Of a stretch of DNA of 41,295 nt, positions 2,903 to 15,526 are shown in pieces. The stretch lies in assembly GCA_019749915.1 (NCBI GenBank), contig JAIEPE010000014.1, positions 1 to 41,295 of the forward strand, given 5' to 3'. Every line of letters starts with the position of its first letter. The stretch's first letter is position 1. A program made the position numbers and the translations under genes. The notes beneath the pieces were generated by a model that was given only the letters and a program-made list of their open reading frames with translations, did no database searches and was not told where the DNA came from. This DNA comes from Alphaproteobacteria bacterium (GTDB lineage Bacteria > Pseudomonadota > Alphaproteobacteria > UBA9655).

Positions 2903-3229
2903 TTAAAATGGGAGTTTCATCCCTCCAGGAAGCTTAAGGCCGCCAGTTACCTTTTGCATTTCTTCCGCAGATTTTTCGTTCGCTTTTTTCTGGGTATCAT
3001 GAAGAGCCGCCACCAAAAGATCTTCAAGAACTTCTCCTTCCTTTGGATCGAGGAGGCTGGGATCAATTTTCACCTCCTTAATAGTGCCTTGACCATCTGC
3101 TAGTATCTTCACGAGGCCACCACCGGAAGTGCCTTCCACCTCAAGGGTAGTGAGTTTTTCTTGGACTTCCGCCATTTTTGCTTGCATTTTTTGCGCTTGC
3201 TTCATCATATCGCCAATATTACCGAACAT
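2903..3229 (-). CDS. ybaB: Nucleoid-associated protein YbaB/EbfC family
   Basis: A 108-residue protein with the family start MFGNIGDMMKQAQKMQAKM, a long N-terminal helix, a central GTSGGGLVKILADGQGTIKEVKIDPSLLDP strand region and a second C-terminal helix (LEDLLVAALHDTQKKANEKS). YbaB dimers bind DNA without strong sequence preference and affect nucleoid structure. The gene lies between the dnaX tau-coding end (gap 15 bp) and recR (gap 3 bp), the classical dnaX-ybaB-recR order. An AAGGAAAGAGAGA purine tract lies just before the ATG as ribosome binding site. Nothing unusual seen. Confidence 0.95.
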   Translation of the reverse strand: MFGNIGDMMKQAQKMQAKMAEVQEKLTTLEVEGTSGGGLVKILADGQGTIKEVKIDPSLLDPKEGEVLEDLLVAALHDTQKKANEKSAEEMQKVTGGLKLPGGMKLPF

Positions 3230-3244: not shown

Positions 3245-3622
3245 TTAATTGTCTTCAATATGCGTCAGGATTGTTCCTGGGAACGTTTTTATGAGGGATT
3301 TAATAAATGGTGCCTGCAAAATCCTTTGCCTTCGTTCCTCAAGAGCTTGCTGTTCTTTTTCATGAAGGCTAGGTTGACCCATTTCAGCCGAAATTGCAAT
3401 CGTCCAGACTTCATTCCTTAACTTTTTTAACAGATCTTCCAACTGCTTTGGCAAACTTTTCGGTGCCCTTTCAGTCAAGCGGAGCTTAAGGCAAGGCGGC
3501 GCAAATTCAACAAGGTGAACATCATATAAAAGGTGAGCTTGCAACATCCCTTCCCGTTGTTGACTCACCCACTCAACAAGATCGTCAAAGGAAGAAAATG
3601 ATGGTTTTGCCTCAGTTAAGAC
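3245..3622 (-). CDS. dnaX: DnaX tau-specific C-terminal extension, read by -1 frameshift
   Basis: This frame has no start of its own that makes sense; it continues dnaX after a -1 shift at the A-run. It adds about 125 residues (Val-Leu-Thr-Glu-Ala-Lys ... to IEDN), giving tau of about 525 residues. The sequence resembles the tau C-terminal domain of alphaproteobacteria: a segment judged by the pattern VHLVEFAPPCLKLRL, then LPKQLEDLLKKLRNEVWTIAIS, then QPSLHEKEQQALEERRQ and APFIKSLIKTFPGTIL. In tau this region contacts the polymerase alpha subunit. A GTG at 3568 could in principle start a free 107-residue protein, but its position mid-domain argues against that. The frameshift is inferred from sequence, not proven. 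Confidence 0.85.
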   Translation of the reverse strand, partial: VLTEAKPSFSSFDDLVEWVSQQREGMLQAHLLYDVHLVEFAPPCLKLRLTERAPKSLPKQLEDLLKKLRNEVWTIAISAEMGQPSLHEKEQQALEERRQRILQAPFIKSLIKTFPGTILTHIEDN

Positions 3623-4821
3623 TTTTTTTTTTCGAGAGAGCTTTCTACACCTCCTTCTAAAAGCTCAGCTAAAGAGGGGAGAGGAGCCAGATGGGTCAGA
3701 CGAATCACAAGAACTTCCAGAGCTTTTTGAGGACAAGGCGCCCTCTTCATTTCCTCAAATCCCTTTAAAAGAATTTGCCAAACCCGAGTCAAGGTTGGAA
3801 GAGAAAGAGAGGCCGCAAGCTCGAGTCCCTTTTGCCGTTTTTCAGCCGTAATTTCAATGTCTTGGGCTAGCTCTGGACTAATTTTGAGGCACTGCACCCA
3901 ATGGGTTAAATCCAAAAGTTCTTCCAAAACGCGCAGCCCTTCCGCCCCTTCTTGATAAAGTTGACGGAGTTTCTCAAGAACCTCTTTGATATTTCCTTCC
4001 ATCATAACGTGGAAAAGATCTAAAAGAGCCCCTTGATCCGAAAGGCCCAACATTTCCCGAACTTGAGCCGTTGTCACGTTTGAGGAGCCATAGGTAATAG
4101 CTTGATCGAGGAGAGAAAGTCCATCGCGTACTGAACCCTCAGCAGCTTTGGCTATTAACCGTATGGCCTCTTCCTCATAAGTCACACTTTCCTTCTCACA
4201 GAGCTCTTGGAAGTAATCGGTTAAGGTTGCACTTTCAATACGTTTAAGATCAAACCGCACGCAGCGGGATAAAATTGTGGCGGGAACTTTGTGAATTTCC
4301 GTTGTAGCAAAGATAAATTTAACGTGAGCGGGCGGCTCTTCAAGGGTTTTCAACAACGCGTTAAAGGCACTTTTTGAGAGCATGTGGACTTCATCAATAA
4401 TATAAATTTTATAGCGTGCTGCAACTGCTTTATACCGGGAAGCCTCAATAATCTCCCGAATATCATCAATGCCGGTACGGCTGGCCGCATCGATTTCAAT
4501 AACATCCAGGGCATGATCTTGAGAAATTGAGGTGCAAGACCCACAAACCCCACAAGGCTCTGGGGTGGGGCCATTTTCACAATTTAAGGAACGAGCGATA
4601 ATACGCGCCGTTGTTGTTTTTCCTGTTCCGCGAATACCTGTGAGGATAAAGGCATGACCTAAGCGATTGCCTTCGATGCCCCTTCTCAAAGTTTCAACAA
4701 GGAAATCTTGACCGATCACTTCACTCAGTTTTATAGGACGATACTTACGCGCTAAAACACGATAGCCTTCTGCAGGCACCGTAGAAGTTTCAGGAATAAT
4801 TTTAAGGGCCGTATTCGTCAC
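3616..4821 (-). CDS. dnaX: DNA polymerase III gamma subunit (zero-frame DnaX)
   Basis: Clamp-loader ATPase that opens the beta sliding clamp. The zero-frame product is 401 residues. Seen in order: the N-terminal YRVLARKYRPIKLSEVIGQ, Walker A GIRGTGKT (residues 62-69), a zinc knuckle with Cys81, Cys90, Cys93 and Cys96, Walker B IIDEVHML (about 141-148), the LLKTLEEPPAHVKFIFATTE sensor stretch, and SRC of the arginine finger. The start is a GTG at 4821 preceded by AAAGGATAGGAA. It ends in Glu-Lys-Lys-Lys-Ser right after an A-run, which is a probable frameshift site leading to tau. The SRP RNA gene ends only about 20 bp upstream on the same strand with no terminator between, so the two may share a transcript. 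Confidence 0.97.
   Translation of the reverse strand: MTNTALKIIPETSTVPAEGYRVLARKYRPIKLSEVIGQDFLVETLRRGIEGNRLGHAFILTGIRGTGKTTTARIIARSLNCENGPTPEPCGVCGSCTSISQDHALDVIEIDAASRTGIDDIREIIEASRYKAVAARYKIYIIDEVHMLSKSAFNALLKTLEEPPAHVKFIFATTEIHKVPATILSRCVRFDLKRIESATLTDYFQELCEKESVTYEEEAIRLIAKAAEGSVRDGLSLLDQAITYGSSNVTTAQVREMLGLSDQGALLDLFHVMMEGNIKEVLEKLRQLYQEGAEGLRVLEELLDLTHWVQCLKISPELAQDIEITAEKRQKGLELAASLSLPTLTRVWQILLKGFEEMKRAPCPQKALEVLVIRLTHLAPLPSLAELLEGGVESSLEKKKS
3622..3656 (-). promoter_or_regulatory. dnaX: Programmed -1 frameshift signal of dnaX
   Basis: On the minus strand the zero frame reads GAA AAA AAA AAG TCT TAA, with ten A in a row (3623-3632). It contains the heptamer A-AAA-AAG in the same phase as the Escherichia coli dnaX slippery site. 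A shift of -1 there opens the frame encoding the tau C-terminus, whereas no shift ends the protein after one more residue. Upstream lies a nine-base perfect Shine-Dalgarno match AAGGAGGTG (3648-3656), inside the codons for Leu-Glu-Gly-Gly-Val, 15 nt before the A-run; E. coli uses a similar internal Shine-Dalgarno element as stimulator. A 7-bp hairpin at 3557-3579 lies further downstream, probably too far to help. Transcriptional slippage on the A-run is an alternative mechanism with the same outcome. Confidence 0.8.
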
Positions 4822-4840: not shown

Positions 4841-4941
4841 TGAGGGGCTGATATAACGTGACCCGCAAGGATCTTACGACGGCTGCTTCCTTCCAGACCT
4901 GACCGAATTGGCAAGACTTACGTCCACAAATCAACCCCTCA
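4841..4941 (-). ncRNA. ffs: Signal recognition particle 4.5S-type RNA
   Basis: The minus strand contains the conserved SRP helix-8 core GGTCAGGTCTGGAAGGAAGC followed by AGCC, which binds Ffh. The ends close by pairing TGAGGGGTTGAT at the 5' end with ATCAGCCCCTCA at the 3' end, giving a single hairpin of about 100 nt, the small bacterial form. It pairs with Ffh for co-translational targeting of membrane proteins. It lies just before dnaX, as in many proteobacteria, and has its own promoter-like sequence at 4949-4977. Ends are assigned from pairing and may be off by a few bases. Confidence 0.95.
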
Positions 4942-5842: not shown

Positions 5843-6700
5843 CTAGCGCAACTTTACATAATGCTTCAAAAACTGATCTCGACTTTCCCAACGTAAAATA
5901 TCATCACTTTGACTGCTTTCTATAAAAGTAAAGTTGTCATCAAGGTTTTCCCGCTTATGAGGAAATACATTATCTCCTTGAATTTTCCCTGTCTGGCCCT
6001 TGCCTATAAAAGACCCTATACCGCTTCCCCCATGACTGATGAGAAGAAGGGCGACTGAATTGGGATTGTGATCAGTGATAAGGGGTGGCGCAAGAACATT
6101 ACTACCATCCTCTCGAAGAAGAGTAATATATCCACCGCTTTCGTTCTGAAGAGTTGTATCGACCTTAGCAAATTCAGGCTCTACAACATAGGTCATGAGG
6201 CGTTTGAATCCATCTTGACTATACACCTCACTAATTCCCAAGGTTTTAAAAGGAACTATTCCTTTTGCTCTTTGCCCACGACAGTGCAATTGGGACACGC
6301 CATACTCGTTCCCTATTCCTTGAGGCGCGGCAGGGCAAGGAAAACGCTTATTTTTCTCCACATGGGCTGCAATAGCACCGAGTACATATTCTTGATGAGA
6401 ACGAGTCTTTATAAGTGCTGCTCTTTGAATTTGCGCTGTGAGAAGGGGCAAGCTTAAGCCACCTAAAATTCCTATGATGATAAGAACGATGGAAAGTTCT
6501 AAGAGAGAAAATCCCTCTTCACCTTTGGTACGTAGAATAAAAGTTCTAAAAATTCCGTCATTGCGAGGCCCTGCAAGGGCCGCGGCAATCCATTTTTCCA
6601 ATCCATATGGATCGCCACGCCCCCGTTGGTGGCTCGCGATGACGTTTTTTTTGTAGGTCACGTCCTTAAAGTTGGAAAAAGAGAACACAAGCCGCATCAT
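5843..6700 (-). CDS. Prepilin-like protein with repeat-derived long leader
   Basis: The core is a type IV pilin/pseudopilin: leader end RTKGEEG, then cleavage before [18 protein letters not shown] with Glu at +5 (codon for F at 6511), a long N-terminal helix, and a globular part with PCPAAPQG and several Gly-rich loops. The problem is the start. The natural leader just before FSLLE has no ATG, GTG or TTG, because a palindromic repeat (6557-6644) sits directly upstream and is open in this frame. Candidate starts are the ATG pair at 6700/6697, which overlaps the end of the preceding prepilin gene, and a GTG at 6661. Either gives an about 50-63 residue leader encoded largely by the repeat. It may still be cleaved normally, or the gene may be poorly expressed. 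The exact pilin subclass cannot be told. Confidence 0.75.
6557..6644. repeat. GTCATTGCGAG-type palindromic dispersed repeat
   Basis: An 88-bp element with terminal inverted repeats CGTCATTGCGAG and CTCGCGATGACG (11 of 12 positions pair). The interior has secondary inverted pieces (AATCCAT / ATGGATT type) and is G+C-rich compared with its surroundings. Elements with GTCATTGCGAG ends are known as intergenic palindromic repeats in many bacteria, including Rickettsiales-like genomes. Here it lies between two prepilin genes and is read through in frame by the second. No other copy is visible in this window. Confidence 0.85.
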
Positions 6701-7352
6701 GATTTTCAAGATTATAAACTCCCTCCTCAAGAACACAGGAATGAGGCGCCTTATCGGTCCCATCCATAGCACGTACTTTTCCTGATGTTGGATGTCCATT
6801 ATCCATTCTTTTATCAATACTTAAGGCCTGAGCAGGCGTTAAAAGACCTCCTGTGCCATGGGTGTTATGCTTTTGGCCCAGAATAAACCAAAATCCAGAG
6901 AGTCCTTGCGGATTACTTTCAACCGTAAAGCCCCCTCCTAGAGAGGATCCCGGAGCTCCTTTTCCGAATTCTCCAACATTTATTTCACTTTCTAAGCCGG
7001 GGTTTCCAATCAGCCCAGCGCCGGCTAAATGGGCCCAAAAACCAAGGGCTTCACTTCCCGACGCAAGACCTGCTCCTTCAACAAGACCATTACCATTTCC
7101 GTTAGGCAGATTTTCCTTTATTTGAGTGGAGGCATTATGAAAATCACCAGGGAGAGAGTCGTATTTGTCTAGGAAAGTACTGGTGGCCATACGCAGTTCA
7201 TTAAGCTGAGAGATAACCCGCTTAAGACGAGCACTCTCAATAAGATCTCTCCCCTTTAAGATACCGCCAATAAGTAGCCCCATAATGATGAGTACAACTG
7301 CAAGTTCGATAAGGCTAAAACCAGCCTCAGGGTGGGATTTATTTTTCTTCAT
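6666..7352 (-). CDS. Prepilin-type N-terminal cleavage/methylation protein
   Basis: A 228-residue prepilin. An 11-residue basic leader (MKKNKSHPEAG) precedes the cleavage site and FSLIELAVVLIIMGLLIGG, with Glu at +5 as prepilin peptidase and pilin assembly require. After the helix come RLKRVISQLNELRMATSTFLDKYDSLPGDF, typical of type II secretion-like or minor pilins, a Gly-rich middle, and two cysteines near the C-terminus (SCVLEEG and ACVLFFQL) that could form the pilin disulphide loop. The start ATG at 7352 has GAAGGTG just upstream; a GTG two codons earlier is less likely. No assembly ATPase, secretin or prepilin peptidase gene is in the window, so these two genes form an isolated pilin pair. 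Confidence 0.88.
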   Translation of the reverse strand: MKKNKSHPEAGFSLIELAVVLIIMGLLIGGILKGRDLIESARLKRVISQLNELRMATSTFLDKYDSLPGDFHNASTQIKENLPNGNGNGLVEGAGLASGSEALGFWAHLAGAGLIGNPGLESEINVGEFGKGAPGSSLGGGFTVESNPQGLSGFWFILGQKHNTHGTGGLLTPAQALSIDKRMDNGHPTSGKVRAMDGTDKAPHSCVLEEGVYNLENHDAACVLFFQL

Positions 7353-7380
7353 TGTCACCTTCCCATTTTTTTGAAGTCTG

Positions 7381-15364: not shown

Positions 15365-15526
15365 GAGGGAGCCGCAATGACCGTTTGCGATTAATGTCCT
15401 CGTGTGGCCCGCGTATGCAGGTGGGTGCCATATGCCCTAATCCACGGATTAAGGCAGAAACAGCTCCCTAAAGGAAGGTATCGGCCCCAGGGAAAGTTAC
15501 ACATAACGCATCCCGCAGCGCCCCTC
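15365..15526 (-). ncRNA. ssrS: 6S RNA, regulator of sigma-70 RNA polymerase
   Basis: A gene-free stretch on the minus strand contains the 6S hallmark CCCTGGGGCCGATA, and the ends close by pairing GAGGG near the 5' end with CCCTC near the 3' end, with GC-rich pairs continuing inwards (GCGC/GC). The centre can open into the large bubble that mimics an open promoter. Length is about 160 nt, as usual. 6S RNA sequesters RNA polymerase in slow growth. It sits directly upstream of the cyclo-ligase gene, the classical location. Ends are assigned from pairing and the promoter at 15533-15561, so they are approximate. Confidence 0.88.

Follow-up and report, generated by a model that had tools for sequence, protein, structure and literature searches.

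How can a bacterium make full-length tau when the reading frame of its dnaX gene closes just before the tau C-terminal domain? The question is raised by a dnaX gene in the window (the whole stretch of DNA analysed, 41,295 nucleotides), which is one contig of a draft alphaproteobacterial genome of 2.08 Mb in 73 contigs. The original prediction, made from the letters of the window, proposed a programmed frame change at a run of A residues, with the zero frame ending one codon past the run and a tau C-terminus of about 125 residues lying in the -1 frame. The locus is laid out as follows, all features being on the minus strand:

3616..4821, minus strand: dnaX zero frame, 401 aa, gamma-like (AAA+ core, lid, domain III), start GTG at 4821; matches to PF13177, PF22608 and PF12169.
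3623..3632, minus strand: A10 run, the putative slip site, in the codons GAA AAA AAA AAG, read from the sequence.
3616..3618, minus strand: zero-frame stop TAA of dnaX, the second codon past AAG, in the context GAA AAA AAA AAG TCT TAA.
3245..3631, minus strand: -1 frame extension of dnaX, 128 aa counted from the lysines, comprising a linker and the tau C-terminal domain (PF12362), stop included in the coordinates.
4841..4938, minus strand: small SRP RNA (RF00169; 57 bits, gathering score 40), directly upstream of dnaX; context, outside the proposed mechanism.
2903..3229, minus strand: ybaB/ebfC (PF02575), directly downstream of dnaX; context.

Both parts of the predicted layout were borne out. 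The zero frame indeed closes at 3618-3616, one codon past the A-run; its product matches NF006585 at 605.4 bits (cut-off 604) and ends 13 residues past the domain III match. From the run, the -1 frame extends to a TAA at 3247-3245, adding 125 residues beyond the three lysines, and the resulting tau form would have 525 residues. PF12362 (‘gamma and tau subunits C terminal’) matches the whole extension with an E value of 3.5e-29. The best AlphaFold model of the C-terminal segment has a pLDDT of 84.7 (five models range from 84.7 to 55.4); a structure search with this model returned nothing at an E value of 0.001 or better, and E. coli tau domain V (2AYA) was matched weakly, at rank 3 (E 0.063, TM 0.47, rmsd 7.6). 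Farther downstream of dnaX lies what we take to be a recR-like gene.

Plain transcription and translation of this gene would thus yield a gamma-like clamp-loader subunit of 401 residues, with domains I-III, whose translation stops one codon past the A-run, and full tau of 525 residues, whose C-terminal domain is expected by homology to contact the polymerase, would need a -1 shift at the run. Because the zero frame stops right after the run and the tau domain lies in the -1 frame, the gamma-like form would be the default product and tau would depend on a slip.

The genome belongs to a family of uncultured alphaproteobacteria, which was sampled as 17 genomes, and its order comprises the identical 17. 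We found dnaX in 15 of them; the other two, 63% and 82% complete, gave only weaker AAA+ gene matches. All 15 family genes have the same two-frame layout: an A-run in one phase, a zero-frame stop close by and a -1 frame that encodes the C-terminal segment. The run is A9 in seven genes and A10 in eight; its length varies while its phase stays constant, since the runs differ by substitutions at their 5' boundary. In every gene the -1 frame stays open beyond the run, for 67 to 189 residues, and PF12362 is present in the extension of 14. The two-frame dnaX is therefore real in every family copy examined, which confirms the initial observation, and a programmed frame change at the run is well supported. 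Single-frame relatives that lack the A-run, named by the original prediction as evidence to the contrary, do not occur among the 15 family genes, none of which has become a single frame. In L014 (G011), the dnaX of a relative with a genome of 1.2 Mb, the putative slip site is kept and the tau C-terminal domain has lost approximately its first half.

The pattern of substitution indicates what selection has kept. In nine pairs chosen of 105, dN/dS of the -1 extension was 0.145-0.277, whereas the zero frame gave 0.027-0.078. Five of the nine pairs have a dS greater than 1, which makes their ratios rough. The zero-frame stop is the second codon past AAG in 14 of the 15 genes (10 TAA, 1 TAG and 3 TGA), the exception being L008, where a TAG stands two codons later. 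The +1 frame also stops near the run in 14 genes, 5-13 codons from its start; the distance is 32 codons in L012. The lysines are encoded by AAA AAA AAG in all 15 genes, and each of the eight other invariant lysine columns mixes AAA and AAG (L015 and L032 are out of register in the tract columns of this alignment). The codon 5' of the lysines is GAA (8), TTA (3), TCA (2), CTA (1) or GTA (1); it thus encodes E, L, V or S and ends in A in every case, and codons ending in A make up 69% of Glu, 26% of Leu, 14% of Val and 13% of Ser codons in these genes. An invariant third base was found in 7 of 375 degenerate ungapped columns overall and in none of the 147 ungapped columns with three or more amino acids; the codon before the lysines was compared separately and lies outside both sets. 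The third-base A at this codon could be partly inherited, amino-acid changes there needing no third-base change. Together, the invariant AAA AAA AAG and the A-ending codon before it mean that the run is kept at nine A or more, which exceeds the need of A_AAA_AAG by three.

These data bear on three explanations in which no programmed slip would take place. That the true dnaX has eleven A and a single frame, its split being a sequencing or assembly error, is scarcely credible: homopolymers are error-prone and most of the family genomes are drafts in many contigs, but a miscounted A would scatter the phase, and all 15 genomes agree on one phase with two run lengths. The zero-frame stop codons, moreover, vary yet persist, and most long A-runs lying sense in long stop-to-stop frames of the same genome are read through, as detailed below. 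We give next to no weight to decay of a gene whose tau is no longer needed; the partial loss of the C-terminal domain in L014 would fit it, but the dN/dS values of the extension, the -1 frame that is open in all 15 genes and the PF12362 matches in 14 speak against it. It is very unlikely, too, that the gene is split and the tau C-terminal domain is made as a separate protein by reinitiation past the stop. A GTG at 3568 opens a frame of 107 aa that could serve such a protein, but the PF12362 match begins before it (profile position 2 falls at extension residue 13, and a reading from the GTG matches only from position 12, with an E value of 1.5e-25). This GTG is present in four of nine aligned sequences, our own included (nine of the 15 genes were aligned), and reinitiation would leave the conserved A-run unexplained.

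If the frame is changed by a slip, the question becomes which enzyme slips. The original prediction pointed to an E. coli-like site, with an internal Shine-Dalgarno and a downstream hairpin around the slippery heptamer, and left the balance between ribosomal and transcriptional slippage open. The two putative stimulators are:

3648..3656, minus strand: AAGGAGGTG, Shine-Dalgarno-like, separated from the run by 15 nt and from the heptamer A_AAA_AAG by 19 nt; judged incidental.
3557..3579, minus strand: hairpin proposed earlier; not supported, as its folding is no better than that of shuffled sequence.

The heptamer itself was correctly predicted to have the phase of the E. coli dnaX site, and it is in phase in all 15 family genes. 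The stimulators fared differently. Although AAGGAGGTG is present 15 nt before the run, as claimed, it is not a conserved stimulator: when related dnaX genes were aligned, as had been suggested, the A-run and its phase proved conserved and the full 9-mer did not, being found in 1 of 15 genes, our own, and missing even from the 97%-identical L004. Shorter Shine-Dalgarno pieces (5-6 nt) precede the run in six other family genes, at distances of 8-31 nt; L008 carries GGAGG 15 nt before the run. In our own genome, folding showed no excess structure over shuffled sequence in either the 96 nt around the site (z 0.04) or the 75 nt downstream (z -0.43), and the predicted hairpin was not borne out. We also compared downstream secondary-structure folding across the 15 genes by z against shuffles and by predicted shapes, and saw no fold shared by the family: z ranged from -2.47 to 1.78, and fell below -2 in two genes, L007 (z -2.47) and L008 (z -2.19). 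A small stem right after the run (L001 and L005, with another form in L006) was set aside, as it is not common to most of the other shapes printed. Hairpins in the nascent RNA upstream were likewise not supported in the 15 genes (z from -0.86 to 1.42). In columns 360-379 the synonymous codon identity was 0.41, below the mean of 0.47; it reached 0.67 in the last eight columns counted, three of which are the lysines. With the full AAGGAGGTG in a single gene, no shared structure, and gamma and tau roles reversed, the E. coli-like reading does not hold.

The tRNA complement offers a further comparison. In the part of PMC5009743 available to us, A_AAA_AAG is described as the best E. coli ribosomal shift heptamer, shifting in E. 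coli is put down to its having only one tRNA-Lys, which pairs weakly with AAG, and the presence of two lysine tRNAs is suggested as a possible reason why Thermus uses polymerase slippage. Our own genome has both tRNA-Lys UUU and tRNA-Lys CUU. The CUU tRNA is intact in 12 of the 17 family genomes (ARAGORN); among the loci returned, no intact copy was present in the remaining five, of which three are 63-83% complete and two are G009 (92%) and G008 (97%). At a contig end of G008 there is a 48-base fragment that matches the CUU gene exactly.

We also surveyed long A-runs elsewhere in our own genome, which has 44 distinct runs of A9 or longer (54 overlapping hits). Twenty-one of these lie in the sense direction within stop-to-stop frames of at least 480 nt, and 18 of the 21 read on for at least 57 nt, although in some the start codon may come after the run. 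In the other three the frame closes within 18 nt: these are dnaX, L188 and one ordinary gene end, at which the other frames are short. Because 18 other long frames with sense runs of A9 or more read on, the polymerase of this organism may slip little. L188 (G000:C49:15477-15485), presumably a transposase-like gene, is split at an A9 and was considered as a second slippage gene; it is more likely a decayed copy, since five further copies in the genus continue through this place without an A9 run. One of the 18 runs that read on is an A11 in the coding frame of L214 (G000:C71:12943-12953), with about 350 residues in frame downstream; we take L214 to be a tilS-like gene.

On this evidence we favour slippage of RNA polymerase on the A9 or A10 run as the probable route to tau, over -1 shifting of the ribosome. 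RNA polymerase, by slipping on the nine or ten A, would produce a share of mRNAs with one A more (or two fewer); these would be read straight through as tau, and the remaining mRNAs would give gamma-like products. The balance that had been left open tilts this way because a minimum of nine A is kept, because the stimulators are missing and because both lysine tRNAs are present in our own genome. The alternative is that the ribosome shifts to -1 at A_AAA_AAG, or somewhere along the A-run, and so produces tau from an mRNA that is itself faithful, the gamma and tau roles being swapped relative to E. coli; this is distinctly less likely, though it deserves serious attention. It is favoured by the heptamer, intact and in phase in all 15 genes and always in the -1 direction, a regularity that we count against polymerase slippage; by the internal AAGGAGGTG of our own gene and the GGAGG of L008; and by the folding downstream in L007 and L008. 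We weigh against it that the full Shine-Dalgarno occurs in one gene only and 19 nt from the heptamer, that no hairpin is common to the family, that synonymous constraint upstream is not clear, that our own genome has a tRNA for AAG, and that nine A are kept where the heptamer needs six. Also counted against polymerase slippage are the five genomes in which no intact CUU tRNA was seen, the 18 A9+ frames that read on, the Shine-Dalgarno pieces in six genes, the downstream folding of the two genes with z below -2 and the loss in L014. Both processes might act on the run together, since the site meets the sequence needs of each, but no conserved stimulators of ribosomal shifting were found and we regard joint action as improbable. 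We thus infer, from sequence, that slippage occurs at dnaX, that it is transcriptional, and that both DnaX proteins are made and used.

Two-frame dnaX is, as a gene type, known since 2013. In the portion of PMC3711429 (Antonov et al. 2013) available, 17 two-ORF dnaX genes from 12 genera are described in which tau needs recoding; 12 of the 17 have poly-A, nine of them with 10 A. Transcriptional realignment is favoured there for two-ORF dnaX, and clusters with one direction of shift are taken as a sign of ribosomal shifting. The family genes resemble that set in their adjacent frames, in the -1 relation at the DNA level, in the poly-A junction and in a tau reached via recoding. They differ in belonging to an alphaproteobacterial family, in the presence of the layout in all 15 dnaX genes found, and in the comparative evidence that the family provides on stop, run and tRNAs. 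The family adds a new, widely conserved case, its newness being judged against the two of the 12 genera, Chloroherpeton and Chlorobium, that are named in the portion available. Among the literature matches listed, by title and the start of the abstract, we found no report of a two-frame dnaX for this lineage or for Holosporales-like bacteria.

Among the other known systems, again as far as the available parts of the cited papers go, Thermus thermophilus dnaX undergoes transcriptional slippage on A9 (PMC5009743, PMC1088944). Like Thermus dnaX, the family genes have an A9-type run at the gamma/tau border (15 of 15), nearby stops in other frames and, in our own genome, a tRNA for each lysine codon; unlike in Thermus, where tau is the unshifted product of one frame, here the gamma-like form is unshifted. 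The family shares with E. coli dnaX the in-phase A_AAA_AAG (15 of 15) and a gamma that ends right after it, but the roles are reversed (the zero frame stops at 401 aa), there is no conserved Shine-Dalgarno or hairpin, and there are two lysine tRNAs. Such a reversal of roles seems to be much less widespread among bacteria than the E. coli arrangement (PMC5009743). In Blochmannia vafer and B. floridanus, a poly-A frameshift in dnaX is thought to be corrected by slippage (PMC3017870). The likeness to our case extends to the poly-A frameshift and to slippage as its presumed correction; in B. vafer, by contrast, dnaX is one of eight genes with homopolymer frameshifts and the frameshift lies downstream of the gamma site (PMC3017870), whereas here the site is conserved at the gamma/tau border.

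Among the genes listed from its class, the two-frame layout appears to be confined to this family. A class-wide scan found dnaX in 380 of 387 genomes. Among the genes listed, frames of about 400 aa occur only in the family, bar three genes at contig ends; outgroup dnaX is one open frame, bar three contig-end cuts, one gene split over two contigs, one of 446 aa (G408), and G212, which has a TAG marked inside the match, yet whose frame is open for 535 aa from the start taken by our script. In the order of the nearest outgroup genome, dnaX was found in 40 of 42 genomes, with frames of at least 516 aa except for one of 446 aa (G408) and one split over two contigs. Candidates for independent origins elsewhere in the class did not hold: among the genes listed, the short frames of G122, G071 and G182 are contig-end cuts. 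The short single-frame DnaX proteins L083, L084 and L087, from three named alphaproteobacteria (414-439 aa from the script's start), end by eye in a tau-like C-terminus without an A-run. In a tree of 51 DnaX sequences, the 15 family members form one clade with support of 97/54, the second figure being weak, which appears in 96% of bootstrap trees. The nearest neighbours of this clade are a Holosporales MAG, whose branch is very long, and then Caedibacter sp. 38-128 and the G032 group, in an order that the tree leaves unsettled. An in-frame A9 or A10 also lies near the gamma/tau border, at dnaX codons 380-400, in four single-frame genes: L042, L069, L099 and L123, whose hosts are two other alphaproteobacteria, a Kiritimatiellae MAG and a Fibrobacter MAG. 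Stops stand 0-7 codons off in both other frames, which makes these four Thermus-like candidate slippage sites.

In one alphaproteobacterium, a different way to a short DnaX is documented. According to the parts available of the papers on Caulobacter crescentus, gamma there is tau processed by ClpXP (PMC5422525), and a Gly-rich tract stops ClpXP on DnaX (PMC6677533). The comparison lies in an alphaproteobacterial way to a short DnaX, which in Caulobacter is critical for survival; the difference is that in Caulobacter full-length tau gets cut, whereas here the Gly-rich stop tract is missing. In the linker between domains III and IV, all 15 family genes have at most 3 Gly per 10 residues. Among outgroup linkers, 15 of 25 contain a stretch of 10 residues with at least 4 Gly and 10 of 25 are at 3 or below, including the near ones L066, L233-L235, L239 and L240. 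Because near outgroups are also without it, loss of the Gly-rich linker may predate the slip site, and the argument from the linker is weak. We put forward only tentatively, and rather doubtfully, the idea that the Gly-rich linker was lost in this lineage and that polymerase slippage took over the choice between gamma and tau from proteolysis, with gamma as the default and tau as the dependent product.

If such a shift took place, the gamma:tau ratio would be set by the run length (A9 or A10) and RNA polymerase. If tau is indeed made by a slip, whatever became of the linker, the full-length form of a replication protein needed by most bacteria would hinge on that slip across a whole bacterial family. 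The lineage would then join E. coli, Thermus and Caulobacter as one more case where bacteria seem to retain a short DnaX. The variation between A9 and A10 at a fixed phase provides a natural comparison set for run length against gamma:tau ratio. Annotation pipelines may label such dnaX genes as truncated or frameshifted.

Two further features of the window were noted. A 6S RNA (RF00013) lies at 15365-15524 on the minus strand, with a score of 71.4 bits, and at 5843-7358, also on the minus strand, two adjoining frames contain what we take to be pseudopilin-like stretches.
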